From positions 1 through 22,086 of IMG/VR virus record IMGVR_UViG_3300025603_000095: DNA of 22,086 nt. The stretch is one strand, 5' to 3'. Position 1 is the stretch's first letter. Every line of letters begins with the position of its first letter. A program made the translations under genes and the position numbers. Below, piece by piece: positions 2,013 through 18,289 of this stretch. The stretch comes from a virus. The notes under the pieces are model-generated. The model was not told where the DNA came from. It worked only from the letters and a program-made list of their open reading frames with translations, and did no database searches.

Positions 2013-2251
2013 AGCTGGCGCGCACCGCGTCCCAGCTGATCGACCTTTTCAATGAAGATTCCTTGAGCGGTCATCCGCTCGATCAATATGTTCATTGAAA
2101 CAATTAGCGAGTTGCGGTGCGCACTGAGCCCCCAACGCTCGACCCTTGTGGTGATCTCGTCGAGGCTGACAGTGTCAACTCCAGCCTTCTTGCGTTCGGC
2201 GATCAATTCCACAATCGCCATCTGGCGGTCGGTCAATGTGCGCTTATTCAT
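1991..2251 (-). CDS. Small winged-helix-like protein
   Basis: The product has 86 residues. The start ATG at 2251 overlaps the helicase stop as ATGA, so translation is probably coupled. The sequence MNKRTLTDRQMAIVELIAER, then VSLDEITTRVERWGLSAHRNSLIVSMNILIERM, then GIFIEKVDQLGRGARQLYRI reads as helix, helix-turn-helix, and a beta-wing. This resembles a MarR or winged-helix DNA-binding fold. No exact family is recognised. As the last gene of the leftward cluster it could be a regulator or a helicase partner; both are inference. It ends inside the o-spanin coding region, with no space for a terminator between the converging genes. Confidence 0.65.
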   Translation of the reverse strand: MNKRTLTDRQMAIVELIAERKKAGVDTVSLDEITTRVERWGLSAHRNSLIVSMNILIERMTAQGIFIEKVDQLGRGARQLYRIRCG

Positions 2252-3960
2252 CCCAGTCCTAGCTCCCGTCCTACGTCCAGCACCAATGCGCTGAAATCTT
2301 TTTTGGATTGAAGGTTGCGCAGCAGGGCATAGTCGATGCAGCCCTTGGCAACCAAGTCGATGTAAAGCGCCGAGCCACCCATTCCGATGCGGTGGATGCG
2401 GTCCTCGCTCTGCCAACGCTGGACAGAGTTGAACCCGTTGGAATAGTAGATGGCTGTTGAGCTCACCTTTTGCAATCCGTCAAGACCCTCAGCAGCTGTG
2501 GCTGGGGTTGCCACGAAGTAGCGCACTGGTGATTCAGGATCGCAGAAGTCTGCTTTTGCCTTGGTCCGTGCGCGGTCGTCGTCGTCACCAAAGTAGGTGA
2601 CAGCCTCGTCGCCCAGCTCGGCCGCGATGCCACGGATGTCGTGTTTGTAGCGAGCCCAAATCACGACCTTGCCGTCAACGTCCTCCAGCACAGACTTCAG
2701 AGCTTCCATGCGCGGGTTGGGGAAGGTGTCCAACCCGAACTCATGCGCGATGAACCCATTGCTGACCTCTTGGATCTTGCCCAGCGTTGGGGCTGCACCC
2801 TCAAAGAACACGTCCTCGCCCATGGCTGTTGTGTAAATCTGCGTTGTGCGCAGCTGGCTGATAGCATCGCGCTGCTCCTTGGACAAGTCGAATGCGACCT
2901 TGCGATACTGCTTTGCGGGCAGGTCGAGGCAGTCCTCTTTCTTGACGCGGAACACGTATGGTGCGGTGATGTCTTTAAACCGAGTTAGGTTCTTGGAGCC
3001 AACAATCTGCTTGCCTTCAAAGCCACCCATGATGCAATACTCGTTGCGGAAGGCGGTCAGGTAGCGGTGACCCACGATGCCTTCGTCCAGCAACTTGAGC
3101 TGCGACCACTCGTCCACGAGGTTCTTGGCGATAGGCGACCCTGTCATGATGATCCGCACACCGCACTGTTCGGCCACGCGCAATGCAGCCTTTGTGCGTG
3201 CGGCAGTCGGGTTCTTCAGGTAATGCGTCTCGTCGCCAACAAAAGCCACGCGACCCTTGTGAGCCTGCATGAATTCGTTGAGCTCTTGCGCAGCCTTCTT
3301 GTGGATGATCGCATCGAAGTTGACGCAGAACCACTTGAGCTCGTCGTCAAGCTTGAACATGTGAGGCGGCACAGCCTTGCCATTCCAAACATGCGCGCGC
3401 CAACGGACTTCCGATTGGGTGAACATCTTGATTGGGCAAGGCTCGGTGGTGCCGTCGTCCTCAACGCTGTCAGCCGCCCACTGCTCGTGGACACCCTTCT
3501 TGGCGAGCAACACCACCGCGTCAATCCTTCCTGCGCAGTGGTGACGGTTGATCAGGTCGATGGCCATCTTGGTCTTGCCTGTTCCCATGTCTGCGAACAA
3601 TGCGCTGACAAAAGCACCGTTCGGAGCCTTGAGGTCACGGAACTTCTCGTGGGCCATGCGCTGGTGAGCGTGGTCGCGCAAATGAACAACACCAGAGGAC
3701 CCCGAAAAATACGTCGTAGGGGCGCAGAAGGCAGCTTTGGCAGGCAACCCTACAGCGGAACCCCATAGCTCGGCTCCTGGTTTGGCTCCGTGGGCCTCTG
3801 GCACTGTGATGCCCAAAGCCTCTGCGCACCGAACGTTGTGGGGTGTCCGCTCGAAGCGGAACGATCCGTCCTGCAACCACCGCCTGCCACCCTCCAGTTG
3901 GGGTGACAGCATCAGCGCTGCGCGTCGGTCGGTCTTGGGGAGCGTTACGAAGTCACGCAT
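2248..3960 (-). CDS. SNF2-family (SF2) DNA helicase/translocase
   Basis: The product has 570 residues from ATG 3960, which has AGGAGA just upstream; an in-frame ATG at 4020 lies inside the preceding gene and is not preferred. Motifs in order: Walker A ADMGTGKT at 123-130; Walker B/DEAH-like DETH at 243-246; motif III TGSP at 273-276; the C-terminal RecA lobe, with GKVVIWARY at 430-438 and ATPATAAEGLDGL at 484-496; and motif VI QRWQSEDRIHRIG at 514-526. Together these identify an SF2 helicase of the SNF2/RapA-like group common in phages. It is expected to use ATP to translocate on or remodel DNA in replication, recombination or repair. It overlaps the upstream gene by 8 bp and the downstream gene by 4 bp, so all three are probably co-translated. 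Confidence 0.92.
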   Translation of the reverse strand: MRDFVTLPKTDRRAALMLSPQLEGGRRWLQDGSFRFERTPHNVRCAEALGITVPEAHGAKPGAELWGSAVGLPAKAAFCAPTTYFSGSSGVVHLRDHAHQRMAHEKFRDLKAPNGAFVSALFADMGTGKTKMAIDLINRHHCAGRIDAVVLLAKKGVHEQWAADSVEDDGTTEPCPIKMFTQSEVRWRAHVWNGKAVPPHMFKLDDELKWFCVNFDAIIHKKAAQELNEFMQAHKGRVAFVGDETHYLKNPTAARTKAALRVAEQCGVRIIMTGSPIAKNLVDEWSQLKLLDEGIVGHRYLTAFRNEYCIMGGFEGKQIVGSKNLTRFKDITAPYVFRVKKEDCLDLPAKQYRKVAFDLSKEQRDAISQLRTTQIYTTAMGEDVFFEGAAPTLGKIQEVSNGFIAHEFGLDTFPNPRMEALKSVLEDVDGKVVIWARYKHDIRGIAAELGDEAVTYFGDDDDRARTKAKADFCDPESPVRYFVATPATAAEGLDGLQKVSSTAIYYSNGFNSVQRWQSEDRIHRIGMGGSALYIDLVAKGCIDYALLRNLQSKKDFSALVLDVGRELGLG

Positions 3961-4369
3961 CTTTCTCTCCTTGTGGTGGCCATTTTGCCAAGACCTTGCC
4001 TGTTGTGGTTTGCAGCTCAACGGTGCCTTGCTTTGCTTTGCGCGCTGTCAGCTTAAATTGAAGCTCAGCCTCTGACGGTATGCCTTCGTAGATTTCGCGC
4101 GGCTCGTCGGTTTTGCGACCAGACCAACGGACCACATAGTGCTTAACACCTGAAGCCATTTCCTCTGCGTCACGGATCATGCCAGCCTTCATCTCGCACC
4201 AATCTGGTGTGGTGTTCGGGGTTTCCATGATCCGAGGATTGCTTCTGTCTGCGTGCGAGCATGCGTGCTGACCGAGGTGGAATGTTCTGAACACGCACCA
4301 GTTGCAATGCACCTCTCTGGCTTTTTTGGTGATTGTGTCGATTGTTACTTGGGGTCCGAAAGATCTCAT
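3953..4369 (-). CDS. Cys/His-rich phage protein, possible zinc-binding, unknown function
   Basis: The product has 138 residues. ATG 4369 overlaps the stop of the DenV-like gene as ATGA. The N-terminal half is rich in cysteine and histidine: C22-x2-C25, H31, H35, C37, H39 and C58, a spacing that suggests a small zinc site. The C-terminal half (KHYVVRWSGRKTDEPREIYE, then ELQFKLTARKAKQGTVEL) is beta-like and basic. No family is recognised. Its position between a UV-repair glycosylase and an SNF2 helicase makes a role in DNA metabolism plausible, but this is context only. Confidence 0.7.
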   Translation of the reverse strand: MRSFGPQVTIDTITKKAREVHCNWCVFRTFHLGQHACSHADRSNPRIMETPNTTPDWCEMKAGMIRDAEEMASGVKHYVVRWSGRKTDEPREIYEGIPSEAELQFKLTARKAKQGTVELQTTTGKVLAKWPPQGEKDA

Positions 4370-4776
4370 AGCGCATACTCCATGATGGCGTCATACTCTT
4401 CGCGGTATGGGCGGTGGTCGGGTGCACGCTCAATGAGGCGGCACAGGTTCACAGTAAGGTCGGTCTTGTCGGGTTGCCAAAGCGGTCCGAAACCAAGGCC
4501 GATGACTCGTTCTACGCCATCAATCTGCTTGCGTTGGTCAGCTTGATAGCCACGGTGGCGCATCTCCTTGGCCAGCCAACCCGTGCGCAACGTGATGTAG
4601 CCAAGCTTGTCGGCGAAGAATTTCATGTGACCCTTGCCCAGAGTGTATCGCTCGGGGATGTCCTTTGGGTCAACACCACCCTCAGCGAGCGTGATGATGC
4701 GGCCGATCTCGTGCCACTCGGCCAGCAGGTGCTGACGTGTCAACAAAGACGGGTGGACGACGTTGATTCTTGTCAT
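4366..4776 (-). CDS. denV: Pyrimidine-dimer DNA glycosylase / AP lyase (T4 endonuclease V-like)
   Basis: The product has 136 residues, close to the 138 of T4 endonuclease V. The start at 4776 has GGAGG upstream. It places Thr at position 2, so that removal of Met exposes the catalytic N-terminal threonine; the longer frame to 4806 would destroy this. The N-terminus MTRINVVHPSLLTRQHLLAE matches the T4 enzyme layout, and Glu23 (catalytic in T4), His16 and Arg26 are conserved. T4 Arg22 is replaced by His here. The enzyme excises UV-induced cyclobutane pyrimidine dimers and nicks the abasic site. It follows a structured intergenic element that should form its 5' leader. Assignment is strong; activity is inferred from conserved residues. 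Confidence 0.9.
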   Translation of the reverse strand: MTRINVVHPSLLTRQHLLAEWHEIGRIITLAEGGVDPKDIPERYTLGKGHMKFFADKLGYITLRTGWLAKEMRHRGYQADQRKQIDGVERVIGLGFGPLWQPDKTDLTVNLCRLIERAPDHRPYREEYDAIMEYAL

Positions 4777-4965
4777 GGTTGTTTCCTCCAACTTACCACT
4801 TTCCACTTTACCCTACAATTCCCACAAACCCTATCATATACTCTCTATCTTCTCTTCTTTCTCTAACTCCTGAGAATTGTAAGAAAAATGGAAAGTGGTA
4901 AGTGGGAAAACAAGGACTTAACTTTTTGGTGTGATTTCGGGGGAGCCTGAGCCCCCCCACGATGG
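4777..4965 (-). promoter_or_regulatory. Structured intergenic element copy A, upstream of the DenV-like gene
   Basis: This 189-bp gap lies between the DUF932 stop and the denV-like start. Read on the minus strand, 4929 to about 4792 is closely similar to 18072-18211: the first 58 or so bases differ at about one position and the rest is more diverged. An 18-base inverted repeat has arms at 4792-4809 and 4885-4902, with one mismatch that would be G-U in RNA. It extends through ACAATT/AATTGT inside, around a loop of roughly 50 bases that is purine-rich in the transcribed sense. GAAAACAAGGACTTA lies at 4906-4920 on the plus strand. Close to the DUF932 stop there is also a GGGGG(8 nt)CCCCC hairpin (4939-4956) without a T-run. 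Confidence 0.75.
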
Positions 4966-5964
4966 TCACACAGCCAGCTCTGCGAGCTTCTGTTGGGCCA
5001 CGGCCTTGAGGCGGTAGTTGTGGCCCCACCAGCTGTCGACGAGACGCTTGTCTTGCTTGTCGCCAGCACCGTGATCGGTCCAGTGGGTAATGCCATTGAG
5101 CACACCCCAAGCAGACTCTTGTTCCGCACCTGCGCCATTCATGTAGCTGTTCATGAATTGACCCATGCGAGAGCGTTTGCCCAGCTGTGTGTCGATGGCT
5201 TCCAGCATCTCTGTTGCTCCAGCACGGTCAAGAGCCTCTTGGCTGATCAGCGAGTTGAAGAACACCATGGCGTCAAACTTGTCCATCTTGATCTGCTGGA
5301 GCTGTTTGGCGAAGTCACCTTGGGCAGCGAGGTTCTGGTTGGCCATGTCGACCACCTCACGTGCACGGCTGAAGTCAAAGTCGCACATGTGGTTCTGGCG
5401 GTATTCGCTCTGGGTCCCACCGTTGAGAGAGTAGGTAAGGGTGTTGTTGCAAACCACGCGGACCGAGGTCGTGCGGACTTGGATCGACGAGCCAACAACG
5501 TGCGGCAGCGAGAACAGCAGGTAGCCTTCAGTGCGGTCGCCGTTGGGGAGCGTGAAGCCATTGCCCAACTTTGCGAGAGCCCAGACGTGCTGGCCACCCT
5601 TGAGCGAGCCAGCTGTTTCCATCTTGGCACCGCCGACCTCGCAGAACTCACGGAAGAATTCGAATGCCTCTTTGTTCTGGGTCGGACGCCAGTTGTCGCC
5701 GCTGATGGTCATGACCTTGTTGTCGCTGGTCCGCGTCAGTGCCCACTTGGAAGGGACCTTGATGCGGTCGGTCTTCTGGGTCTTAGGATCATACAGCTGG
5801 GTGTAGATCGGCGTCTTCTTGACTTCCCAGTCGAGGCCAGCAGCCACCATCATCTCGTCGACCGAGATTTCAGGATCGACCTGCGTGCCGAGGCCGTGCC
5901 AAGGCAGGGAGCCTGCGTAGGCCATTTTTGCTTCACCGTTGACGATTTCGAGTTCGTGTGCCAT
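4966..5964 (-). CDS. DUF932 phage/plasmid-like protein
   Basis: The product has 332 residues; the start MAHELEIVNGEAKM has AGGAGGACAACC upstream. The opening AYAGSLPWHGLGTQVDPEIS, then VDEMMVAAGLDWEV, is characteristic of the DUF932 (phage/plasmid-like, TIGR03299) family, as are SGDNWRPTQNKEAFEFFREF and TSVRVVCNNTLTYSL further on. Length is normal for the family. The molecular function is not established; members are common on phages and plasmids in early or replication-associated regions. Here it is the largest early leftward gene before the structured element. The minus-strand frame is supported by the family match, so the long plus-strand frame across it is a shadow. Confidence 0.85.
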   Translation of the reverse strand: MAHELEIVNGEAKMAYAGSLPWHGLGTQVDPEISVDEMMVAAGLDWEVKKTPIYTQLYDPKTQKTDRIKVPSKWALTRTSDNKVMTISGDNWRPTQNKEAFEFFREFCEVGGAKMETAGSLKGGQHVWALAKLGNGFTLPNGDRTEGYLLFSLPHVVGSSIQVRTTSVRVVCNNTLTYSLNGGTQSEYRQNHMCDFDFSRAREVVDMANQNLAAQGDFAKQLQQIKMDKFDAMVFFNSLISQEALDRAGATEMLEAIDTQLGKRSRMGQFMNSYMNGAGAEQESAWGVLNGITHWTDHGAGDKQDKRLVDSWWGHNYRLKAVAQQKLAELAV

Positions 5965-5981
5965 GGGTTGTCCTCCTAGGA

Positions 5982-6173
5982 TCAGATGTTGGCGTTGACA
6001 GTTGCGACCAGCTGTTCGTGGTCGGTTGGATTGAGCTTGGGGAAACGCTCGGCCACCCAAGGCCGAACGTCGGAGCTGGCAAGAGGCTCGTGCGAGCTCT
6101 GGCGTCCTTGGAGCAAGGACAGTGCGCAGCGGGTGGCTGAGGTGAGGTTGTTGGTCTTGAAGTAAAGTTGCAT
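5982..6173 (-). CDS. Small hypothetical phage protein
   Basis: The product has 63 residues from ATG 6173; a longer form from ATG 6191 (69 residues) is possible. ATG 6173 is preferred because GGGA sits 7 bases upstream, whereas the AGGA before 6191 is too close to the codon. It begins 1 base after the stop of the small membrane-protein gene. The sequence (MQLYFKTNNLTSATRCALSL, later PWVAERFPKLNPTDHEQLVA) looks helical and soluble. No family or function is recognised. It ends 17 bases before the DUF932 gene and is probably in the same transcript. Confidence 0.6.
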   Translation of the reverse strand: MQLYFKTNNLTSATRCALSLLQGRQSSHEPLASSDVRPWVAERFPKLNPTDHEQLVATVNANI

Positions 6174-6174
6174 G

Positions 6175-6300
6175 TCAGAATCCCAATCCATGTCCTATAA
6201 TAAGAAAGATGTAGCCTGCTCCGAAGAGCGAGGCGACCCCGATAAGGTCGCCCAGCCAATGATCGTTGAGCCAGTTGGCGAGCTTGATGAGCTTACGCAT
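6175..6300 (-). CDS. Very small membrane protein
   Basis: The product has 41 residues. ATG 6300 lies inside the end of the upstream gene (8-bp overlap). An amphipathic basic start (MRKLIKLANWLNDHWLGD) leads into one hydrophobic segment (LIGVASLFGAGYIFLIIGHG). No family is recognised. The overlap with both neighbours and the clear membrane pattern argue for a real gene despite its size. A role in host takeover or superinfection exclusion would be only a guess. Confidence 0.55.
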   Translation of the reverse strand: MRKLIKLANWLNDHWLGDLIGVASLFGAGYIFLIIGHGLGF

Positions 6301-6553
6301 GGCCGAAATTCCAGATGACGCGCTGGGCTGTGCGTGGCCCGAAGAAGACGATCGCGATGTCGTCGTTCGCCAGCATGCAAGTCTGGTAAAGACCATTGGC
6401 GCCAGAGCGTGTGGTCTTGAGCCAGTTGCGGGCGCGAGTGCGCGCCTCGTTAAAGGCAGGCACCGCGCTGGGGTTGTCCAGCAGCTCCTTAGCGTGCGGT
6501 GTGCTAGCAAGCTGTGCGGCGACGGTGCCAGCGCGAGGGAAAGAGTATGCCAT
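6293..6553 (-). CDS. Hypothetical phage protein
   Basis: The product has 86 residues with a strong GAGGAGG ribosome site before ATG 6553. The site lies within a small AACCT/AGGTT inverted repeat, which could mask it weakly in RNA. The sequence has an Arg-rich helix in the middle (NEARTRARNWLKTTRSGANG) and a hydrophobic C-terminal stretch (ANDDIAIVFFGP). No family is recognised. It is the second gene of the leftward cluster, so it is likely expressed early. Confidence 0.6.
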   Translation of the reverse strand: MAYSFPRAGTVAAQLASTPHAKELLDNPSAVPAFNEARTRARNWLKTTRSGANGLYQTCMLANDDIAIVFFGPRTAQRVIWNFGHA

Positions 6554-6580
6554 GAGAACCTCCTCAGGTTAGGCGTTGCG

Positions 6581-6829
6581 TTAGACTTTCATGAAGCCTT
6601 CGTAGCGGCCAGCGTAGCCACCCTGTGTTTTGTTGAGAATGACCAGCGCAGTCCAGCGGCCAGAAGGTGTGCGAACAACCATCGAGCGGTCGTCGTATTC
6701 GGGATACATTTCAGCATACTGGGCCAGTCGCTTGCGCAGGTTGGCCTCGGTGGCGTAAGACTCGACGTAGTTGCCGTCGAGTGCTGTGTTGCCGTCGAGT
6801 GCTGTGTTGTCGATTTCGCGCATTGCCAT
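6581..6829 (-). CDS. Hypothetical early phage protein with duplicated NTALDG motif
   Basis: The product has 82 residues from ATG 6829, with GAGGA 9 bases upstream; ATG 6823 is an alternative. It contains a tandem TALDGN-TALDGN near the N-terminus from an exact 18-bp duplication. The remainder (ANLRKRLAQYAEMYPEYDDR, then SMVVRTPSGRWTALVILNKT, then GGYAGRYEGFMKV) looks like a helix followed by a small beta-sheet domain. No family is recognised. It is the first gene transcribed leftward from the divergent control region. Confidence 0.65.
   Translation of the reverse strand: MAMREIDNTALDGNTALDGNYVESYATEANLRKRLAQYAEMYPEYDDRSMVVRTPSGRWTALVILNKTQGGYAGRYEGFMKV
6771..6806 (-). repeat. Exact 18-bp tandem duplication inside a coding region
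   Basis: TTGCCGTCGAGTGCTGTG occurs twice head to tail (6771-6788 and 6789-6806). It adds six residues in frame to the N-terminus of the early gene. The perfect identity suggests a recent slippage event. Confidence 0.9.
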
Positions 6830-7185
6830 AGTTTGTTCCTCTGGATTTCGTGGTGACTCTTCAGGGCAGGGTACCAATCCCTGCCGATCCAGCCGCTGAA
6901 AACCAGAGCGGAGAAGCTGCGAGGATCAAGTGCCGTCGGGCCAGCGTCTCCGACCTATCAGTCGGTGGGTTGTTATGCTTAGGCAACCCGTCCTGTTACA
7001 TCCTTTATCTCCTGTTTTGGCAGAAAAGAAAAGTAAAATCGTCCGAGAAGATGCAAGCGAAAACAAGGACTTGTAAAATAGTTCATTTAAGAACCCAAAA
7101 AGAGCGTGCTTTTTGATTCGCGCCGATGCATACTCGGCGAGGGTGGCGACACGACCACCATTAACTCCAAGTGTAGGAGGCCAAC
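6830..7185. promoter_or_regulatory. Divergent intergenic control region
   Basis: This 356-bp region separates the leftward and rightward clusters, so promoters for both should lie here. It holds a CCGAC(6 nt)GTCGG hairpin at 6950-6965; a 10-mer AGGCAACCCG at 6981-6990 preceded by TATGCT, shared with the gap before terS; and GAAAACAAGGACTT at 7059-7072. The last is preceded by CGTCCGA and GC-AAGC in a pattern also seen at 18250-18286. AT-rich sequence runs from about 7010 to 7110. AGGAGG before 7186 is the ribosome site of the rightward gene. No convincing -35/-10 pair can be assigned. An 88-codon GTG-start frame at 6850-7116 is not believed to be a gene. Confidence 0.6.
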
Positions 7186-7965
7186 ATGGCCAAAGAAGTC
7201 GCGAAAGCGCAACAGACTGCCCTCTCCACCGAGATCTCTTTCGAGGATTACGCTGGCGCAGGGTTAGAGAATGTCACCAAGGACGACATTCTCATCCCAC
7301 GCCTGACACTGCTTCAGGCTCTTTCACCCCAGCTCAACAAGAAGAAGCCTGAATACATCGAGGGTGCTGCGATCGGCGACATCGCTGACGTAGGCACTGG
7401 CGAGGTGTTTGAGGCGCCAATCTTGTTCTTGCCTGTGCATTTTCAGAAGGTCTGGATCGAGTGGGCACCGCGTGACAGCGGCAAAGGCCTGATCGCCATC
7501 CACGACAATTCGGACTGCATGGACGGGTGCGAGCAGAACGACCGTGGTCAATGGATCAACGATTCGGGCAACTACCTCGCAGAGACCTCACAGTTCTTTG
7601 GGTTCAACCTCGCAGCTGATGGACGCAAGTGCTTTGTGTCGTTCACATCGACGCAGCTTAAGAAGGCACGTCGCTGGAACACGCTGGCCATGAGCGAAAA
7701 GCTCAAGCGTGCTGACGGGAGCGAATATGCACCGCCTTTGTTCTTCCGAACCTACAAGCTCGGTTCGGCTGAGGAAAGCAACTCGCAAGGTGATTGGGCT
7801 GGCTGGACAGTCGAGCGTGGTCCGAAGATGGAAGAGCTCGAGAATTTCAAGGCGATGTTCGCAGAGGCTATTGAGTTCCGCAAGCAGCTTTCGTCGGGTG
7901 TTGTCAAGGCTGACAACTCTGACATCGAGGATGCCGTAGTCTCCAAGGACGAAGGCGCGATGTAA
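7186..7965 (+). CDS. Conserved phage early protein, unknown function (possible ssDNA-binding role)
   Basis: The product has 259 residues with AGGAGG upstream. The pattern DILIPRLTLLQALSPQLNKK, then YIEGAAIGDIADVGTGEVFE, then ILFLPVHFQKVWIEWAPRDS recalls a widely distributed phage protein type usually encoded early, next to replication genes. Its name and function are not certain to me. The central region has C-x-x-x-C (DCMDGCEQ) and the C-terminus is acidic (ADNSDIEDAVVSKDEGAM), a tail feature shared with single-stranded DNA-binding proteins. That similarity is weak and could be coincidental. It is the first rightward gene and is separated from the rest of the cluster by an intrinsic terminator, so it is probably expressed at a higher level than the genes behind it. 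Confidence 0.75.
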   Translation: MAKEVAKAQQTALSTEISFEDYAGAGLENVTKDDILIPRLTLLQALSPQLNKKKPEYIEGAAIGDIADVGTGEVFEAPILFLPVHFQKVWIEWAPRDSGKGLIAIHDNSDCMDGCEQNDRGQWINDSGNYLAETSQFFGFNLAADGRKCFVSFTSTQLKKARRWNTLAMSEKLKRADGSEYAPPLFFRTYKLGSAEESNSQGDWAGWTVERGPKMEELENFKAMFAEAIEFRKQLSSGVVKADNSDIEDAVVSKDEGAM

Positions 7966-7974
7966 TTTGCCACA

Positions 7975-7999
7975 CCCAGTGTTCAACGATGACACTGGG
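7975..7999 (+). other. RNA hairpin preceding the terminator
   Basis: CCCAGTGT and ACACTGGG form a perfect 8-bp stem with a 9-base loop, 9 bases after the stop of the upstream gene. ACTGGG is repeated at 8003-8008, so the left arm has an alternative partner that overlaps the terminator stem. Confidence 0.6.
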
Positions 8000-8005
8000 T
8001 TAACT

Positions 8006-8045
8006 GGGTGGTGGTGCGGGAGCCCAATATCCACCACCCTTTTTT
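8006..8045 (+). terminator. Rho-independent terminator
   Basis: GGGTGGTGG (8006-8014) pairs perfectly with CCACCACCC (8031-8039) around a 16-base loop and is followed by six T residues (8040-8045). It lies between two genes of the same orientation, with the next ribosome site (GACAGGAG) only a few bases beyond. It should therefore reduce rather than abolish expression of the downstream replication cluster, unless antitermination acts or a promoter lies elsewhere. Confidence 0.82.
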
Positions 8046-8060
8046 GACAGGAGATACCCA

Positions 8061-8615
8061 ATGACCGACTTGTTTGACATTCCCGCCGAGAGCTCTGGCA
8101 ACCTTGTGGAAGTGCTCAAGGACTATTGCTCTGAAGCGATCGAGCTAGACGAAGCTGTCAAAGGCTACGAGCTCGCAATGAAGACTGCCAAGTCGCGGCT
8201 GCATTCGCTGCGCACATTGAAGATACCCGATGCGATGGCTGAGGCTGGCATCGGCGACGTGTTCTCAATGGACACTGGCCATGTGATCAAGCTCAAGCAG
8301 TTCGTCTCTGGCTCGATGCCCAAGGAAGACGAAAAGCGTGACCTCGCGATGAAGGTGCTTGCGCAGCACGGCGGAGCGGCGCTGATCAAGACCGCTGTGG
8401 AAATGGCCTTTGACAAGGGCCAAGCGCACGAGGCCCAGCAGCTCGTAATTCAACTGCGCAACGATGGCTATGACGTGGCCGTGAAAGAAGACGTCAATGC
8501 AATGAGCCTTCAAGCCTTCGCTCGTGAGAAGCTGCGCAACGGCGAGGAGCTTCCACTCGAAACGCTCGGTCTGTTCGCTGGAACCACCGCTGACATCAAG
8601 GAGCCCAAGAAATGA
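8061..8615 (+). CDS. Conserved hypothetical phage protein
   Basis: The product has 184 residues; GACAGGAG precedes the start. Helical heptads at 20-55 (EAIELDEAVKGYELAMKTAK) lead into KIPDAMAEAGIGDVFSMDTG and VIKLKQFVSGSMPKEDEKRD. A 'split helix, then small beta domain with G-x-x-x-F' layout of this kind occurs in phage early proteins near replication genes. No function is recognised. It is the first gene after the terminator and overlaps the next by ATGA, which starts a long run of coupled genes reaching the primase-helicase. Confidence 0.7.
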   Translation: MTDLFDIPAESSGNLVEVLKDYCSEAIELDEAVKGYELAMKTAKSRLHSLRTLKIPDAMAEAGIGDVFSMDTGHVIKLKQFVSGSMPKEDEKRDLAMKVLAQHGGAALIKTAVEMAFDKGQAHEAQQLVIQLRNDGYDVAVKEDVNAMSLQAFAREKLRNGEELPLETLGLFAGTTADIKEPKK

Positions 8616-8881
8616 GACTTCAATCACTGCGCATCGGGCTTAGAAACCCATACAGCGACCCGAGCCCAACGAACCCTTATCAGGCAGTGCTTGAGGTCTC
8701 ATACGATGACACCAAGATGCAAGTTACGCTGGGCGACGAGACGTGCCGACGCATGCTCGAGCTGGCTGGGGAAGAGATCGCCGCTGCGGCACAGATCCAG
8801 ATTCAGGACTTCGTGCGCACAGCACTGGCTGTTTCCAAGCACCAGACAATCGAAGCAATCGCCACCAGCGAGGTGAAATAA
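8612..8881 (+). CDS. Hypothetical phage protein
   Basis: The product has 89 residues; its start overlaps the previous stop as ATGA. An N-terminal stretch rich in Pro and Asn (GLRNPYSDPSPTNPYQAVLE) is followed by a beta-hairpin-like VSYDDTKMQVTLGDETC and a helical C-terminus (RMLELAGEEIAAAAQIQIQD). No family is recognised. The start codon of the next gene uses the last base of its stop (TAATG). Confidence 0.65.
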   Translation: MRLQSLRIGLRNPYSDPSPTNPYQAVLEVSYDDTKMQVTLGDETCRRMLELAGEEIAAAAQIQIQDFVRTALAVSKHQTIEAIATSEVK

Positions 8882-9081
8882 TGAAGCGCATCATTTGCAC
8901 CAACTGCGGCATCCAACTGGAACCAAAGCCCACTGGCCTTGGCGACTGGCCTCTTGAGGCGATGGTTGCGGAGGACGACGATTATCGCCAGAGCCAGCTA
9001 GACGCAGCTCTGGCGGGGTTGCCCTATAAGCACTCGCTGAACATGGCAGCTAACCACCCGACTGTGCAGGTGTTTCCATGA
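8881..9081 (+). CDS. Small hypothetical protein with N-terminal CxxC
   Basis: The product has 66 residues from ATG 8881, with GAGGTGAA upstream. It begins MKRIICTNCGIQLEPKP, which resembles half of a zinc ribbon; a second CxxC is absent, so metal binding would require dimerisation or is not present. The rest is helical and featureless. It overlaps the following gene by ATGA. No function is assigned. Confidence 0.6.
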   Translation: MKRIICTNCGIQLEPKPTGLGDWPLEAMVAEDDDYRQSQLDAALAGLPYKHSLNMAANHPTVQVFP

Positions 9082-10010
9082 TCGTCGCTGGAGCAGGGCT
9101 TGCTGGGTTGATCGCCGCGTCAATGCTGCGTGACGAGGTTGAGGGTGTTTATGAGCTTCAATCCCAACTTCCGCACAACCACTCGGCATTGCTGCGGTTC
9201 CGCAGCTCGGTGGTGGGGGATGCTGTTGGCATTCCCTTCCGCAAGGTCAAGGTCATGAAGTCCGTTGATCCGTGGCGCAACCCAGTTGCTGATGCGCTGA
9301 TGTATTCGATGAAGTGCACAGGCAAGGCCCAGCTTCGTTCGGTGGTGTCAGCGGCTGGTGAGATTGAGGAGCGGTTCATCGCACCTGATGACTTCATCCC
9401 GCGCCTCGCCAAACAGGTCGGACCCAAGATCGCCTTCAATGCTGGGGTGGAAAATGCTCTGGGTCGCCACAAGGTTATCTCGACAGTCCCTATGCCAGCG
9501 ATGATGGACCTGTTGGGCTGGGAAGACAAGCCTGCGTTCGACTTCACTAGTGGCTGGACGATCACTTGCGACCTGCCCAAGTCGATCGATGTGTGCGCAA
9601 CAGTTTACATGCCGCACCCTGCGGTCGAGCCTTACCGCGCATCCATCACTGACCACCGCCTAATCATCGAGGTCAGCGACTGGCAGCTTAATTCGCAACA
9701 ACAAGAGCCATCTAAAGAGCTCGCGATCGGCGCAGCTTGCATGGCTTTGGGGCTGGACCACCTGATGGATTACGTCAAGGAGCACCACGAGATGAAGCGC
9801 ATGAAGTATGCGAAGATTTTGCCGATCCCTGACGCAGTGCGCAAGCGGTTCATAATCTGGGCCAGCGAGAAACACAACGTATATTCGCTAGGACGCTTCG
9901 CCACGTGGCGTCCTGGATTGTTGCTGGACGATGTTGTCAATGACGTTCGCCAGATTCAAAAGATGGCCAGTGGCGAAGTCCACTCCTACAAATCAATGCT
10001 GAAAGGATAA
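9078..10010 (+). CDS. FAD/NAD(P)-dependent oxidoreductase-like protein
   Basis: The product has 310 residues, shorter than typical flavin oxidoreductases (350-500). The extreme N-terminus is a dinucleotide-binding loop (IVAGAGLAGLIAA, G5-x-G7-x-x-G10), with Glu26 where the second strand usually ends. VISTVPMPAMMDLL at 133-146 resembles the mid-protein strand of amine-oxidase/UDP-galactopyranose-mutase-type flavoproteins. LGRFATWRPGLLLDDVVNDV at 271-290 resembles their C-terminal FAD-binding motif (G-R-x-A-x-W/Y, then D-D). Family-level similarity is therefore probable, but the substrate is unknown. It sits immediately upstream of ThyX, itself an FAD/NADPH enzyme, and is probably co-expressed with it. 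A role in flavin or thymidylate chemistry, or in nucleotide-sugar modification, is inference. Confidence 0.75.
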   Translation: MIVAGAGLAGLIAASMLRDEVEGVYELQSQLPHNHSALLRFRSSVVGDAVGIPFRKVKVMKSVDPWRNPVADALMYSMKCTGKAQLRSVVSAAGEIEERFIAPDDFIPRLAKQVGPKIAFNAGVENALGRHKVISTVPMPAMMDLLGWEDKPAFDFTSGWTITCDLPKSIDVCATVYMPHPAVEPYRASITDHRLIIEVSDWQLNSQQQEPSKELAIGAACMALGLDHLMDYVKEHHEMKRMKYAKILPIPDAVRKRFIIWASEKHNVYSLGRFATWRPGLLLDDVVNDVRQIQKMASGEVHSYKSMLKG

Positions 10011-10015
10011 GTCCG

Positions 10016-10768
10016 ATGGACGTGAAACTGATCGATTACACTGGTGCTGGGGCAGCTGATCCCGCACGCCACGCAGCCAACGTGCTGGTGTTCACCAAGC
10101 AGACACGGCTCGAGATGAACGCTGGGTTGATGGATGACATCGCCGCATGGCCAGACGATAAGATTATTGAAGAGCTGCGTTACATGGCCAACACAATCCC
10201 AAGCTCTTGGGAGTTTGTTGAATACAAGTTCCTGATCAACGGCGTCACGCGTGGGTTCACTCACCAGTTCGTGCGCACACGGACAGGCAGCTACGCCCAG
10301 CAGACCATGCGCGTGTTGAACGTCAACGGCTGGACCTATGGCACTGGACCAACTGTGGAAGAGGTGCCTGAGCGGCACGCTGAGTATGCTGCGTGTATGG
10401 GATCGATAGCTGACGTTTACGAGAAGCTGATCGACATGGGCGCCAAGATCGAGGATGCGCGCGGCGTTTTGCCTACGAACATCCACACCAACATCGTGGC
10501 CAAGTTCGATCTGCGGACGCTGGCGGACACAGCGCGCAAGCGTGCGTCGTCGCGGACCCAAGGTGAGTATCGCGATGTCATGGAAGCGATGTTGGCTGAG
10601 GTTTTGCGCGTCCACCCTTGGGCGGCGATGTTTATCAATCGCACCTTCGACAAGGCTGCGGCTGAGTTGGAGGATCGCATCAAGTCTCTTTGCACTCAGC
10701 TGCGCACTGGCGACGTGATCTCAACCAACCTGATCAAGCTGATCGACCAGATGAGGATGACGGCATGA
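10016..10768 (+). CDS. thyX: Flavin-dependent thymidylate synthase (ThyX family)
   Basis: The product has 250 residues; AAAGGATAAG lies just upstream. ThyX enzymes methylate dUMP to dTMP using methylene-tetrahydrofolate, FAD and NADPH. The signature region is HQFVRTRTGSYAQQTMR at residues 83-99, aligning with the canonical Q-x-x-R-H-R-x-x-S-Y-x-x-x-S-x-R-Y. Here the central His is Thr88, the second Ser is Thr97 and the final Tyr is Val100, while Arg87, Arg89, Ser92 and Arg99 are kept. The C-terminal block LPTNIHTNIVAKFDLRTLAD, then RKRASSRTQGEYRDV, matches the family's dUMP/FAD-binding end. The fold assignment is secure; whether catalysis is standard with these substitutions is open. The gene overlaps the next by ATGA. 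Confidence 0.88.
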   Translation: MDVKLIDYTGAGAADPARHAANVLVFTKQTRLEMNAGLMDDIAAWPDDKIIEELRYMANTIPSSWEFVEYKFLINGVTRGFTHQFVRTRTGSYAQQTMRVLNVNGWTYGTGPTVEEVPERHAEYAACMGSIADVYEKLIDMGAKIEDARGVLPTNIHTNIVAKFDLRTLADTARKRASSRTQGEYRDVMEAMLAEVLRVHPWAAMFINRTFDKAAAELEDRIKSLCTQLRTGDVISTNLIKLIDQMRMTA

Positions 10769-10971
10769 GCTGCGTTTTTGAACCGATCACCGTGCACAGC
10801 TCCCTGCATGGCTTTGAGAAGAAGGATGCGTATGCGTTCTCGATCGTGCCGATGCGCAAGTGTGGCATGAAGAATGGCTTGCCGAGGTCGTATTGCTCCA
10901 ACTTCATCCTGAGCAGGCAGAGCGACCCTGACCTGTCATTTTACGATCAACTTGGCGAGGTCGATTCATGA
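10765..10971 (+). CDS. Small hypothetical protein
   Basis: The product has 68 residues. It starts at ATG 10765 overlapping the ThyX stop, and ends overlapping the next start, both as ATGA. Two clusters of basic and cysteine residues (VPMRKCGMKNGLPRSYCSNF) are visible. No family is recognised. The double overlap supports its being a real coupled gene. Confidence 0.6.
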   Translation: MSCVFEPITVHSSLHGFEKKDAYAFSIVPMRKCGMKNGLPRSYCSNFILSRQSDPDLSFYDQLGEVDS

Positions 10972-11117
10972 AGGAGCGATGGAGATTTTATTACGTGCAC
11001 CGTGACGGGTGGCTGACCGACGACATTAACAAGGCCCTCGGCAAGTGCGTAGGTGTCGTTGAAGCTCGCAGCGAAGAAGAGGCGCTGCGTCTGGCCAAGG
11101 AAAGGGAGCTGCTGTGA
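10968..11117 (+). CDS. Very small hypothetical protein
   Basis: The product has 49 residues. It opens MKERWRFYYVHRDGWLTDDI and ends in a charged helix (EARSEEEALRLAKERELL). It overlaps the previous stop as ATGA and the next start as GTGA. The dense overlap on both sides and protein-like composition support it. Function is unknown. Confidence 0.55.
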   Translation: MKERWRFYYVHRDGWLTDDINKALGKCVGVVEARSEEEALRLAKERELL

Positions 11118-11560
11118 GAGGCAAGATTATTATCGTCGACCTTGACGGAACCCTTTACAATTCTGTTGGGCGGTCGCACTTGGCCAAGGCTGGTCTTTGG
11201 GACGATTTCCACTCGCAGTCTGTTTTTGACCAACCCAACTATGACGTGCTTGAGCTTGTGCAGCTTTTGTCAAAAGACCACACAATGCTGGGAATAACAG
11301 GACGCAGCGAGAAGTTCCGTAACATCACCAACGCATGGATGCATCGCTGGTCTGTTCCGCTGGATGACCTTTTGATGCGACCCGACGGAAACTATTACTC
11401 CGACGCTGAGGTTAAGCTGAGCCTGTTGCACCGCTGGCTGGGCAAAAACGACCGCACAATGCGCGAGGTCTGGTTCGCGTTGGAAGACCGCGACAAGATG
11501 GTGGACGCATGGCGCAATGCGAACATCCCATGTTACCAAGTCAGAGCAGGAGAATACTGA
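11114..11560 (+). CDS. HAD-superfamily phosphatase (polynucleotide 3'-phosphatase-like)
   Basis: The product has 148 residues from GTG 11114, which overlaps the previous stop; GGGAG is 5 bases upstream and no better ATG exists. Motif I is VDLDGT with nucleophile Asp9 and acid/base Asp11. Motif II is T62-G-R. Lys101 (AEVKLSLL) fits motif III and E124-D-R-D127 fits motif IV, so the full HAD catalytic set is present. The layout, with W-M-x(n)-V-P-x-D then R-P-D-G-N-Y-Y, resembles the phosphatase domain of phage T4 PseT-type end-healing enzymes. No kinase domain is present. Its substrate could be DNA or RNA 3' ends or nucleotides. A place among replication and repair genes favours nucleic-acid or nucleotide substrates. 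Confidence 0.82.
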   Translation: MRGKIIIVDLDGTLYNSVGRSHLAKAGLWDDFHSQSVFDQPNYDVLELVQLLSKDHTMLGITGRSEKFRNITNAWMHRWSVPLDDLLMRPDGNYYSDAEVKLSLLHRWLGKNDRTMREVWFALEDRDKMVDAWRNANIPCYQVRAGEY

Positions 11561-11760
11561 TGGACGGGCAATTCTACGACTACGCAACTGATTCGATCAA
11601 CAACTCACCTTACCACCCCGACTATGGCTTCATCGACAAGTTCCGCCTCAACTGCGTTGAGCTGGCATCGATGGTCGGGGTGCGTGCAGCAGCCGAGGCT
11701 GCTGAGGTGTCAAAGGCATCAATTTACCGCTGGAGGAAAGATTATGATGACCGTGCCTGA
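11560..11760 (+). CDS. Small helix-turn-helix protein
   Basis: The product has 66 residues from ATG 11560, which shares one base with the previous stop and has AGGAGA 9 bases upstream. The C-terminal half (VELASMVGVRAAAEAAEVSK, then ASIYRWRKDYDDRA) is a compact helix-turn-helix of the homeodomain-like/transposase-type, the recognition helix being SKASIYRWRKDY. It is too small to carry any other domain and may be a regulator or a DNA-binding accessory. The 3' end overlaps the following start by 17 bp. Confidence 0.68.
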   Translation: MDGQFYDYATDSINNSPYHPDYGFIDKFRLNCVELASMVGVRAAAEAAEVSKASIYRWRKDYDDRA

Positions 11761-12067
11761 TATGCTGCGGCAATCCGCAGAGACCTACGAGCAGCGCAAC
11801 AAGCTCTATGGCGACAACTACAAGCGTTTCGGCCACATCGTCGCATTGCTGTTCCCCAACGGCATCAAGCTGGAAAGCGAAGACGACCACAATCGTTTTG
11901 GGGTGTTCGTGCAGATCGTTTCCAAGCTGACCCGCTACGCTGAGAATTTCGGCACTGGTGGCCATGACGACTCGCTGCTGGACATGACAGTTTACGCGAC
12001 GATGCTGCGCGAGCTGGACATGGAAGCCAAGGCGCGCACCATGGATTCAATTAGGAAGAGTTTGTGA
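11744..12067 (+). CDS. Small phage protein, DUF6378-like
   Basis: The product has 107 residues from ATG 11744 (a second ATG follows at 11747), with GGAGG 7 bases upstream. AETYEQRNKLYGDNYKRFGH, then ALLFPNGIKL, R-F-G-V-F-V-Q-I-V-S-K-L-T-R-Y and DDSLLDMTVYATMLRELD form an all-helical pattern common to small phage proteins that I associate with DUF6378. The D-S-L-L-D-M-T-V-Y-A-T-M-L helix also resembles all-alpha NTP pyrophosphatases (MazG-like), but the complete metal-binding motif is not obvious. Nucleotide-pool function is therefore a suggestion only. It overlaps the exonuclease start as TGATG. Confidence 0.65.
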   Translation: MMTVPDMLRQSAETYEQRNKLYGDNYKRFGHIVALLFPNGIKLESEDDHNRFGVFVQIVSKLTRYAENFGTGGHDDSLLDMTVYATMLRELDMEAKARTMDSIRKSL

Positions 12068-12633
12068 TGCAGGCGATATTGTTCGACACTGAGACCACCG
12101 ACCTGATCCACAACCACGCAATCCCTCTGGACCAGCAGCCTCGCATCATCGAGATCTACGCTCTCAAGATTCAGCTGCCAGCGGATGCGTTCGGCTCAGC
12201 CGAGGAATGGCAGTTTGTCGATGAGTTTGAATCCTTCGTGAATCCTGGGATCAAGATCACCGACGAGATCACGCGCATCACCAACATCACCAACGCAGAC
12301 GTCCGCGATGCACCGCGCATCGCCGAGCTATGGCCAAGGCTGCGTGACTTCTTCGCAACGGCGGACATGGTGGTGGCCCACAATGTTTCATACGACATGG
12401 GCGTCATAGACTTCGAGCAGTTGCGTGTTAATGACAAGCAGAAGTTCCCTTGGCCACCCAAGCGGCTGTGCACTGTTGAGGCAACTGAGCACCTAAAGGG
12501 CCACCGCCTGAGCCTGACTGCGTTGCATGAGCAACTGTTCGGCGTCAAGTTCGAAGGCGCACACCGCGCACGCACTGACGTGAAGGCCATGACCATGTGC
12601 TTTAAGAAGCTCTGGGAGGATTGTGAGATATGA
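12067..12633 (+). CDS. DnaQ-like 3'-5' exonuclease (DEDD family)
   Basis: The product has 188 residues from ATG 12067; a GTG one codon upstream is possible. The three exonuclease motifs are complete: ExoI FDTETT (Asp7, Glu9), ExoII HNVSYDMG (Asp110) and ExoIII HRARTD (His166, Asp171), with the His spacing of the DEDDh class. This is the proofreading epsilon-type fold. It overlaps the start of the C-family polymerase gene, so it is very probably the proofreading subunit for that polymerase, encoded as a separate protein. An alternative is a general exonuclease for host DNA or RNA. Confidence 0.88.
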   Translation: MQAILFDTETTDLIHNHAIPLDQQPRIIEIYALKIQLPADAFGSAEEWQFVDEFESFVNPGIKITDEITRITNITNADVRDAPRIAELWPRLRDFFATADMVVAHNVSYDMGVIDFEQLRVNDKQKFPWPPKRLCTVEATEHLKGHRLSLTALHEQLFGVKFEGAHRARTDVKAMTMCFKKLWEDCEI

Positions 12634-15509
12634 GGATCCGCACAGGCTATTCATTCCGCCAAGCAGTGGGGCACCTCGACGAAGCTCTCGCAGGCATCCA
12701 GCGCATGGGGCTCCCATTCGCGCCAATCACCGACCGCGCCTCAACCTTTGGGTTCGTGCGTTGGTCCAAGCTGTGCAAGAAGAACGACCTCAAGCCTGTG
12801 TTCGGGGTTGAGCTGGCAGTGACCGACGACCCACAGAGCAAAAAGCCTGCGTTCGACCACTGGACATTCGTGGCCAAGGATTCACTGGTGCAAGTGCATG
12901 AGGCTCTTGAGCTGGCCACCTCTCAGTTCCGCTATGAGGCTCTGCTCAACTATGATCAGGCCCAAGCGGTTGACGCAATCAAGATCGTCGGCCATCGCTC
13001 AAACCTAGAGGGCATCGACCCCAACACACCTGACCTTTACGTCGCGCTGAGCCCAAGCCTGAGCAATGGTCAGTTTGTGCGTGCGCAGCGATTGGGGTTC
13101 AAGTTCATCGCATCGGGCGACAATCGCTACCCCAGCGAGAAAGATCTGGCGTTCTACGAGGTGGTGTGCGGACGCATGGCATCCACCCAGAGCTATCCGC
13201 AATGGATCGTCTCTCGTGAGGAGTGGGCAGCAGCCCTGCCCAGAGGCTGCTCAGCGTCCGTGGCCGACGAAGCGTGGGCAACGCTACTCTCGGTCGGAGA
13301 AAGCCTTTCAGCGGCGCTAAAATCTGGGTCTCTGTTGGTGCCCGAAAAGAAGATGTCGCTGCGCAAGATGTGCGAGGCGGGTGCGAAAGAATTAGGCATC
13401 GACCTTTCGGACGAAATATACGCTGCTCGGCTGAAGAAAGAGCTGGACCTGATCGACCTCAAGCAGTTCGAGGACTACTTCTACATCATCGCTGACATGG
13501 TGGCTTGGGCACGGGAGCGGATGATCGTCGGCCCAGCGCGGGGTTCGTCGTGCGGGAGCTTGGCTTGCTACCTGCTCAAGATCACGACGATTGACCCAAT
13601 CCCTTACGGGTTGATCTTTGAACGCTTCATCGACCTCAATCGTTCGGACCTGCCAGACATCGACATCGACTTCTCCGACCAGCAGCGGCACCTCGTGTTC
13701 GAATACATGGAGAACAAGTACGGTCGCGACCGCATTGCGCGGCTGGGCACGGTGGCGATGTATAAGGCACGGTCGTCGATGCAGGAAGCTGGCGCAGCGT
13801 TGCGCATTCCGCGTTGGCAGACCGACAAGGCTCTGGACGCATTGATTGAGCGCAGCTCGGGCGACTCACGCGCATTGGACACGCTGCGTGACACGCTGGA
13901 ACAAACACCCAACGGCCAAGAGCTGGTGAGCAAATACCCAGAGGTCATGGTGGCGACAAAGATGGAAGGCCACCCACGTCACCACTCCCAGCACGCGGCG
14001 GGCATCGTGTTGACCGAGCTGCCAGTGCATGAATACGTCGCCGTGGACAAGAGGACGGGTGCGACCCATTGTGACAAAAAGGACGCTGAAGAGCTTGAGC
14101 TGCTGAAGATCGACGCGCTGGGCCTTACGCAGCTGTCCGTGTTCGAGGATGCATTGGAGCTGGCGGGGTTGCCGCTGCACTTTTTGGAGAGCGTGCCACT
14201 GGACGACGACGCTGCGTTCGACGTGCTCAACAAGGGCCATTTTAGCGGCGTGTTCCAGTTCAACGGGTTGGCATTGCAGTCGTTGTGCAAGCAGACCAAG
14301 GTGGTCGAGCTGGACGACATCATCGCCATCACCGCTCTGGCGCGTCCTGGACCGCTGACGTCTGGTGGCGCATCCGAGTGGGTTTACCGCAAGAACGGCT
14401 GGGACCCAAGGATCAATCAGAAGATCGGCACCACCTACCCTCACCCGTTGTTTGAGCCATACCTGAATGACACGCGTGGCATCGTGTTGTATCAGGAGCA
14501 GGTCATGGAGATCGGTCGGCAGATTGGCGACCTGAGCTGGGAAGACGTGACCGCATTGCGCAAGGCGATGTCGAAGTCTCTGGGCAAGGAATACTTCGAC
14601 CAGTTCGGCGACCGCTGGAAGGACGCAGCCGAGAAGAAGGGCATCCCGCGCGACGTGCTTGACAAGGTCTGGGACGACCTTTGCGCCTACGGTGCGTGGG
14701 CATTCAACAAGTCACACTCGGTGGCGTATGGGATGATCAGCTATTGGTGCTGTTGGATGAAGGCACACTACCCAACGCAGTTCGCCGCTGCGACCCTCAA
14801 CCACGAAACTGACCCAATGAAGCAGATCGGCACGCTGCGTGAGCTGCACAACGAGGGAATCGGCTACGTCGCGGTGGACGCAGAGCTGTCGACCGACAAG
14901 TGGCAGGTTGGGTTTGTTGACGGCAAGCAGGTGCTGGTGGGCCCAGTGCAGAACGTCAGGGGCATTGGCCCAAAGCTCGTGCAACAGATTGTGAGCTCAA
15001 GGCACCGCAACGAGCCTCTGCCAGCGCGTGCTGCCAAGCTGCTGGCCGACCCCAAGACCCAGATCGACACGCTGTGGCCAGTGCGCGACCGCATCCAAGA
15101 GCTGATCCCTGACCCAACAGAGCGCAACATCCTTACGCCTGTTTCGGTCATCGAAGACATAACAGAAGCTCACGAAAAGGAGACGACATTCTTGATCATC
15201 GCAGTGGCCAAGTCGATCAACCCGCGCGATGAAAACGAGACGATCATGATCGCGCGGCGTGGCTATGAGATCAAAGATGGCAAGACGCAATCGCTCAACC
15301 TGCAGATGGAGGATGACACAGGCATCATCTATTGCAAGATCGGGCGGTGGAAATACGCCCAGCTAGGCAAGCAGATCGTCGATCGCGGTCGTCCTGGCAA
15401 GTCAATTTATGCCATCAAAGGTTCGGCCCTGCCCAAGCGCAGGTTCTTGATGGTCGAAAACGTTCGCTACATTGGCGACATGGATCCAACACACGAGGAA
15501 AACAAATGA
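12630..15509 (+). CDS. C-family DNA polymerase (DNA polymerase III alpha-like)
   Basis: The product has 959 residues; ATG 12630 overlaps the exonuclease stop. The polymerase core carries GPARGSSCGSL at about 301, the catalytic P-D-I-D-I-D-F with Asp343 and Asp345, and the third carboxylate in LLKIDALGL at Asp495. HHSQHAAGIVL, ALARPGPL, YQEQVM (about 621) and AFNKSHSVAYG (about 691) are further C-family blocks. The N-terminal PHP-like region (about 1-215) has lost the opening HxH metal ligands: it reads RIRTGYSF, and ITDRASTFGFV further on. An OB-like domain spans roughly 849-945. The protein ends there, so the tau-binding tail of cellular DnaE (about 1,160 residues) is absent. It is the replicative polymerase of the phage, partnered with the exonuclease before and the primase-helicase after. 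Confidence 0.93.
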   Translation: MRIRTGYSFRQAVGHLDEALAGIQRMGLPFAPITDRASTFGFVRWSKLCKKNDLKPVFGVELAVTDDPQSKKPAFDHWTFVAKDSLVQVHEALELATSQFRYEALLNYDQAQAVDAIKIVGHRSNLEGIDPNTPDLYVALSPSLSNGQFVRAQRLGFKFIASGDNRYPSEKDLAFYEVVCGRMASTQSYPQWIVSREEWAAALPRGCSASVADEAWATLLSVGESLSAALKSGSLLVPEKKMSLRKMCEAGAKELGIDLSDEIYAARLKKELDLIDLKQFEDYFYIIADMVAWARERMIVGPARGSSCGSLACYLLKITTIDPIPYGLIFERFIDLNRSDLPDIDIDFSDQQRHLVFEYMENKYGRDRIARLGTVAMYKARSSMQEAGAALRIPRWQTDKALDALIERSSGDSRALDTLRDTLEQTPNGQELVSKYPEVMVATKMEGHPRHHSQHAAGIVLTELPVHEYVAVDKRTGATHCDKKDAEELELLKIDALGLTQLSVFEDALELAGLPLHFLESVPLDDDAAFDVLNKGHFSGVFQFNGLALQSLCKQTKVVELDDIIAITALARPGPLTSGGASEWVYRKNGWDPRINQKIGTTYPHPLFEPYLNDTRGIVLYQEQVMEIGRQIGDLSWEDVTALRKAMSKSLGKEYFDQFGDRWKDAAEKKGIPRDVLDKVWDDLCAYGAWAFNKSHSVAYGMISYWCCWMKAHYPTQFAAATLNHETDPMKQIGTLRELHNEGIGYVAVDAELSTDKWQVGFVDGKQVLVGPVQNVRGIGPKLVQQIVSSRHRNEPLPARAAKLLADPKTQIDTLWPVRDRIQELIPDPTERNILTPVSVIEDITEAHEKETTFLIIAVAKSINPRDENETIMIARRGYEIKDGKTQSLNLQMEDDTGIIYCKIGRWKYAQLGKQIVDRGRPGKSIYAIKGSALPKRRFLMVENVRYIGDMDPTHEENK

Positions 15510-17719: not shown

Positions 17720-17907
17720 TGGCTGTGGTGCATGTTGCGAAGATCGAAACTGATGGGCGCACGGCGCGTGTGATCCTGTCCGATGGGAACGAGCTGCATG
17801 GGCTGATAAGTGTTGATTCGAGTGGCGAGGTTAATGCGCTGTCTAAGTTCGTGATCGAAGGCTATATCATGAGGGTTTGTGAAATGGACAAAAAGAGCTA
17901 CAGTTGA
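17719..17907 (+). CDS. Small hypothetical protein
   Basis: The product has 62 residues from ATG 17719, overlapping the previous stop as TGATG; GGAAGGGG lies upstream. The short, beta-rich sequence (VVHVAKIETDGRTARVILSD, then SGEVNALSKFVIEGYIMRVC) resembles small SH3-like or OB-like proteins, but no family is recognised. It ends the compact replication cluster; non-coding and degenerate sequence follows. Confidence 0.6.
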   Translation: MAVVHVAKIETDGRTARVILSDGNELHGLISVDSSGEVNALSKFVIEGYIMRVCEMDKKSYS

Positions 17908-18130
17908 GGTGCCAAGCGGTGCGTGGCTGGGCTGACAGGTGCCCGAAAACGACCGCACAGTGGCTGGGTTAATCTTCCTCCCTGATCCTGGGTCGCTGCG
18001 TCCTGAGTATGACGTTAAACTGCTTGCTGGATCAAACATGATGGTCGGTGGCCGCTGGGGCCAAAAACAGCCCAAAAAGTTAAGTCCTTGTTTTCCCACT
18101 TACCACTTTCCATTTTCCTTACAATTCTGA
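17879..18130 (+). pseudogene. Interrupted reading frame after the replication cluster (possible broken gene)
   Basis: A frame beginning at GTG 17879 (GAGGG 3 bases upstream) reads VKWTKRATVEVPSGAWLG, stops at TGA 17933-17935, then continues as QVPENDRTVAGLIFLPDPGS and on to about 18066 with codon use like its neighbours. After that it runs into the structured intergenic element. The segment after the stop could also start at GTG 17939. Continuity across a single TGA looks like a nonsense-mutated small gene, but this is only a reading of composition. A sequencing error, a real short ORF starting at 17939, or chance are all possible. Confidence 0.3.
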
Positions 18131-18287: not shown

Positions 18288-18289
18288 CC

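Follow-up and report, generated by a model that had tools for sequence, protein, structure and literature searches.

Why would a phage carry the same structured intergenic sequence twice, each time in the same sense ahead of a different gene with a role in DNA processing? The question arises in a 22-kb phage fragment (22,086 nt, referred to as the window), whose genes form a leftward group on the minus strand (2248-6829) and a rightward group on the plus strand (7186-22073), separated by an intergenic region near 6860-7186. A first-pass annotation, made from the sequence alone, had matched 4929-4792 on the minus strand with 18072-18211 on the plus strand and had placed both segments before DNA-repair or nuclease genes. 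We have re-examined the extent of this duplication, its predicted structures and its distribution, and have compared it with regulatory RNA elements described in other phages.

Extent of the duplication and neighboring genes

The annotated coordinates are correct, and the match widens to 4940-4788 on the minus strand (copy 1) and 18061-18212 on the plus strand (copy 2). The two copies, each of approximately 153 nt, are intergenic and share 84.5% identity over 155 alignment columns (E = 4e-36). Each of the two main operons, leftward and rightward, holds one. The copies stand in opposite orientation 13 kb apart, so the replication genes would be inverted if the two recombined with each other. 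Among the genes at 12630-15509 are one for a PHP-containing DNA polymerase III alpha homologue and, next to it, an exonuclease-subunit-like gene.

Copy 1 is flanked upstream by a DUF932 gene and downstream by a gene (4366-4776, minus strand) for a pyrimidine dimer glycosylase, a homologue of T4 endonuclease V or DenV (Pfam PF03013, E = 4e-14; phrog_1183, E = 1e-30; PDB 2end, E = 1.3e-7). Upstream of copy 2 is a 63-aa ORF, and downstream is a gene (18290-18697, plus strand) for a 135-aa protein that matches the endonuclease family phrog_93 (E = 6e-6). As this protein has no significant Pfam match (only Hjc, E = 0.078, below the cut-off), we refer to it as a probable nuclease of the PD-(D/E)XK type. 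The description of a structured duplicate lying in the same sense ahead of two genes of the DNA-repair or nuclease type is thus upheld. Downstream of copy 2, a possible leader ORF of 22 aa (18219-18287, plus strand) ends 2 nt before the nuclease ATG and contains an internal ATG at 18240 with its own Shine-Dalgarno (SD) sequence, AAGGAG. We also considered translation of a leader peptide from the ATG conserved in the loop, and rejected it because the reading frames are not kept between the copies.

Identity between the copies is concentrated at their 5' ends, where about 58 bases had been reported to differ at a single position. We find a block of 57 nt (4873-4929, minus strand, in copy 1; 18072-18128, plus strand, in copy 2) that differs only at C18117 and that we refer to as the 5' strand. 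In a sister strain (L002), even this difference disappears: the 5' strand of its copy 2 is identical to that of copy 1 (0 of 57 differences), whereas the same two sequences differ at 10 of 43 loop positions and at 11 of 42 positions of the 3' strand (about 25%). The contrast in divergence between the 5' strand and the rest gives a Fisher p value of about 1e-4 with the window copy. Judging from these comparisons, the invariance of the 5' strand calls for an explanation by recent gene conversion or by some further constraint acting on it. Pairing alone is not the full answer to the 57-nt identity, since positions 18119-18128 (approximately), which form part of the 5' strand of copy 2, are hardly paired.

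Predicted RNA structure

The long inverted arms described in the first-pass annotation are real. In copy 1, 4787-4809 and 4885-4907 are complementary at 91% and are extended by 4807-4824/4871-4888; in copy 2, 18103-18118 and 18196-18211 are complementary at all 16 positions. Copy 2 carries a second inverted pair that had escaped description, in which 18081-18095 is complementary to 18272-18286 at 15 of 15 positions. In the predicted fold of copy 1, these arms form a stem that runs almost unbroken over more than 40 pairs (5' arm 4871-4913, 3' arm 4779-4824, both on the minus strand), while copy 2, on the plus strand, is predicted to form a perfect 16-bp inner stem and an outer stem made by the second pair. 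The predicted structures span about 165-210 nt from the first to the last paired base, with a purine-rich loop of 40-80 nt.

Folding of the sense RNA gave z scores of -6.5 (copy 1) and -4.7 (copy 2), and none of 200 dinucleotide shuffles was equally stable. In a sliding-fold scan across the whole window, copy 1 was the strongest structure for its base composition. The earlier proposal of a conserved RNA or cruciform structure can be narrowed for copy 1, where sense RNA is favored over a cruciform: the sense strand folds at -75.8 kcal/mol, versus -55.9 kcal/mol for the antisense strand, and its main stem contains five G.U pairs and no A.C. For copy 2 the advantage of the sense strand is small (-67.7 versus -63.8 kcal/mol), with little strand asymmetry. 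The strand bias in copy 1 is as expected for an RNA that matters, within the limits of the folding model and of small numbers.

It had further been claimed that the arm sequences of the second halves differ between the copies and that each still pairs with its own left arm. The 3' arms do differ, but the 5' arms are identical, and the changes are one-sided, turning A-U into G.U pairs or losing pairs. Because the 5' arms are identical, the covariation hinted at between the copies finds no support, and no compensatory change was found among the two copies and one near-identical strain. The one strain variant within a stem, C18117T in L002, converts a C-G pair to U.G and keeps the pairing.

The absence of a recognizable noncoding RNA class was borne out in Rfam, where neither gathering nor loose thresholds gave a real match to any family. 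We rejected sub-threshold matches to microRNAs (the best, MIR6288, at 41 of 74 bits) as generic matches to a long hairpin. An intrinsic terminator was also rejected, as neither copy shows a short, G+C-rich stem running into a stretch of T.

Predicted burial of the ribosome-binding sites

The best clue to the function of the element is one absent from the first-pass annotation, namely the position of the ribosome-binding sites (RBSs) within the predicted helices. In copy 1, the 5' strand pairs through GGAGGAAACAA, and the 5' arm 4871-4913 pairs with 4779-4824 to within 3 nt of the DenV start codon (ATG, 4774-4776), covering the GGAGG SD at 4785-4789. In copy 2, the outermost 15 nt of the structure, TAAGTCCTTGTTTTC (18081-18095), are perfectly complementary to GAAAACAAGGACTTA (18272-18286), exactly over the SD of the downstream nuclease gene (AAGGA, 18278-18282). 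Since GAAAACAAGGACTTA lies outside the duplicated segment, this SD pairing is no trivial result of the duplication. In the folding models, one 5' strand is thus predicted to bury two different RBSs through different helices.

We calculated the free energy required to open positions -16 to +4 around each start codon, within a context of -230 to +40. In a comparison of 26 predicted genes, whose start codons we assigned ourselves and in some cases weakly, the DenV gene (16.83 kcal/mol) and the nuclease gene (16.05 kcal/mol) ranked first and second, and the next value was 11.72 kcal/mol. When the upstream sequence was shuffled and the RBS kept (n = 300), the mean opening energy was 7.4 kcal/mol for DenV and 6.6 kcal/mol for the nuclease, and the observed value was reached zero times and once, respectively. 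Deletion of 60 nt of the 5' strand lowered the opening energy to 5.7 kcal/mol (DenV) and 6.1 kcal/mol (nuclease). Masking of a 14-mer (AAGTCCTTGTTTTC) alone lowered that of the nuclease RBS from 16.05 to 5.64 kcal/mol and that of the DenV RBS from 16.83 to 11.14 kcal/mol. The other half of the phage (contigs L010 and L099) contains a single higher opening energy, at an antisense GTG frame with no SD.

These predictions lead us to propose, with moderate confidence, that the element acts in cis as a leader RNA, present in duplicate, that keeps translation of two DNA-processing genes locked. Read-through transcripts from the upstream genes would carry the pyrimidine-rich 5' strand, which would fold back onto the purine-rich stretch that precedes the next gene and hide the SD of that gene, directly in copy 1 (the DenV homologue) and via the extra outer helix in copy 2 (the probable nuclease). 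Both enzymes would be poorly translated until the helix is opened. Candidates for the opening step are transcription initiated within the element, RNase III cutting in the long stem and, for copy 2 only, a ribosome translating the 22-aa leader ORF. The duplication, the complementarity, the predicted burial of the SDs and the dependence of this burial on the 5' strand are what the analysis demonstrates, whereas we infer that translation is repressed in the cell and when and how the repression is lifted. The gene order is compatible with late genes lying within early or middle polycistronic transcripts.

A scan for sigma-70 promoters detected none in the sense orientation at either copy. Outside the loops of the element, the conserved 13-mer AGAGAGTATATGA turns up in this phage no more often than chance would give, and we found no support in it for a late promoter within the loop. 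A phage-specific promoter may be present between the 5' strand and the RBS.

The element might instead serve RNase III processing or mRNA stability, which we regard as unlikely as the primary explanation, although the two functions are compatible and not mutually exclusive. The stem would then mark a cut in the polycistronic transcript that separates the upstream gene from the nuclease gene, and RBS burial would be a by-product or would be relieved by the cut. The almost unbroken stem of copy 1, with its more than 40 pairs, the perfect 16-bp inner stem in copy 2 and the presence of one copy in each main operon all fit such a role, but it leaves unexplained why the SD is paired in both copies, by different helices.

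The 14-mer and a third site in the divergent intergenic region

A search for the 14-mer AAGTCCTTGTTTTC allowing up to two mismatches returned four sites in the window, against 0.08 expected by chance, and all four are exact. Two are at the 5' ends of the element copies, one is inverted at the nuclease SD, and the fourth, which the first-pass annotation had not reported, lies at 7059-7072, also inverted, in the divergent intergenic region ahead of a gp34-like gene. The sequence at this last position, GAAAACAAGGACTT, is complementary to the 5' ends of both copies and belongs to a third site (7035-7072, plus strand) that is 80% identical over 41 nt to 18245-18285. We considered a conserved peptide encoded at 18245-18285 and 7035-7072 but discarded it, as it is not kept in a related phage contig, L023. 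An AT-rich block at 7022-7095, before the gp34-like gene, is partly common to L023 (2760-2830; CAGAAAAGAAAAG and ACTTRYAAAATAGTTYA), with a spacing that differs by 10 nt, and has the look of a promoter or operator region that has been conserved.

These sites bear on the possibility, which we consider rather improbable, that the 57-nt block and the 14-mer are read as DNA, forming an operator, a promoter or another protein-binding site, and that the RNA structure is secondary. That the 57-nt identity exceeds the needs of pairing would be understandable on such an account, as would the presence of the 14-mer on both strands, with one site (7059-7072) in the divergent intergenic region, adjoining the block common to L023. 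However, neither copy has a sense sigma-70 promoter, the 14-mer is absent from L023, the copy 1 stem has G.U pairs and lacks A.C, which points to RNA, and chance does not explain the burial of the RBSs. Nor did any observation hint at a role in replication initiation.

If the element is a translational lock, the 57-nt strand could conceivably act as a common switch, although we give this little credence. RNA from the third-site region is predicted to bind both leaders with a net gain of -5 to -12 kcal/mol, and RNA from 7035-7085, using its exact 14-nt complement GAAAACAAGGACUU as a toehold at the 5' ends of both leaders, could free both SDs. A single phage riboregulator would then turn on two DNA-processing enzymes together. 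Because L023 has the AT-rich block at the corresponding place but no 14-mer, a DNA-level role of the 7035-7085 region is just as possible.

Distribution of the element

Conservation beyond the two copies in related phages did not emerge, as no homologue was found outside this phage species. The element was found only in contigs of the same species (L001/L009, L002/L096 and L003/L010/L095); a further contig of the species, L011, ends short of it. DNA-similarity searches revealed no homologues in annotated phages and plasmids, and searches of viral and genome collections with exact and gapped patterns returned same-species contigs only, besides short chance matches. Contigs L092, L097, L098 and L101-L113, which have about 19-24 nt in common with the element, were set aside as chance or simple-sequence matches. 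No such leader precedes the genes of two DenV relatives (L093 and L094), and the element is absent from relatives identified by terminase and gp34. Its confinement to one phage species limits every evolutionary test.

The same searches bear on the idea of a MITE-like mobile or selfish miniature element that inserted twice and has no regulatory role. Two copies beside unrelated genes in opposite genome orientation, and perfect 15-bp terminal inverted repeats in copy 2, are what such an element might leave, but we consider this origin very unlikely. The idea is weakened by the unequal ends, as the homology ends at 18212, short of the right 15-mer, and copy 1 lacks the same right end. The copies therefore do not share the terminal inverted repeats of a MITE, and inspection by eye revealed no target-site duplication. 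No more copies were found in the approximately 37 kb of this phage searched or in other phages, plasmids and genomes, and the 5' strand is conserved while the rest has diverged.

Comparison with known systems

It is established that the RBSs of T4 e, soc, 49 and I-TevI are buried when they lie in long transcripts (PMC3014915), as are those of I-TevII, I-TevIII, segB and mobE of Aeromonas phage Aeh1 (PMC2988022). The predicted lock resembles the leaders of T4 e (lysozyme), soc and 49, in which the SD and/or AUG lies in a helix of long early transcripts (PMC3014915), and T4 I-TevI, I-TevII, I-TevIII and segB and Aeh1 mobE, in which a stable helix formed in read-through transcripts only buries the SD of the endonuclease gene (PMC2988022); here, too, an SD or start codon lies, by prediction, in a stable helix of a read-through transcript. 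In contrast to the T4 e, soc and 49 leaders, the structure is larger, at about 165-210 nt with a 40-80 nt purine-rich loop, and has no internal promoter that we could find. In the T4 and Aeh1 endonuclease hairpins, a late promoter inside the structure gives rise to unlocked transcripts (PMC2988022), whereas we found no such promoter here. An internal late promoter is the defining feature of the best-studied members, and the element is therefore not filed as a proven member of the T4 e/I-TevI type despite the predicted burial.

The genes involved are also different, being a DenV homologue and a probable PD-(D/E)XK nuclease here and homing endonucleases in the T4 and Aeh1 endonuclease hairpins. 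The principle of locking an RBS is known, and the new part is one invariant strand common to two unrelated genes. To our knowledge, a nearly identical 57-nt 5' strand serving two unrelated genes occurs in none of the T4 and Aeh1 hairpin cases. If our interpretation is correct, a small phage outside the T4 group has evolved the same translational lock on DNA-cutting enzymes. The lock would have arisen by the copying of one leader to a second, unrelated gene, and such locks could spread as modules within a genome. The two-gene case would also offer a simple test of whether one RNA strand coordinates a small regulon.

The put RNAs of HK022 measure about 70 nt and form two stem-loops each; putL and putR, one per early operon, are located no more than approximately 270 nt from their promoters (PMC9378689). 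An antitermination RNA of this kind, acting on RNA polymerase, is highly improbable here: the phage does carry a pair of related structured sequences, split between its leftward and rightward operons, as HK022 does, but they are single long stems set against start codons, some 2 kb and 11 kb away from the divergent region, they differ from put RNA in size, stem-loop number and position (PMC9378689), and they match no sequence family. Both the put RNA and the mobile-element models fit worse than the translational lock.

Other repeats in the window

Three tandem repeats were noted elsewhere in the window. In its first 240 positions (1-240), a 60-nt (20-residue) coding unit occurs four times, head to tail. 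A small leftward gene contains a perfect 18-nt tandem duplication at 6770-6805 (NTALDGNTALDG in the protein). The C-terminal part of a portal-like gene contains a 33-nt tandem repeat (21907-21972), and the sister contigs are apparently about 33 nt shorter there.
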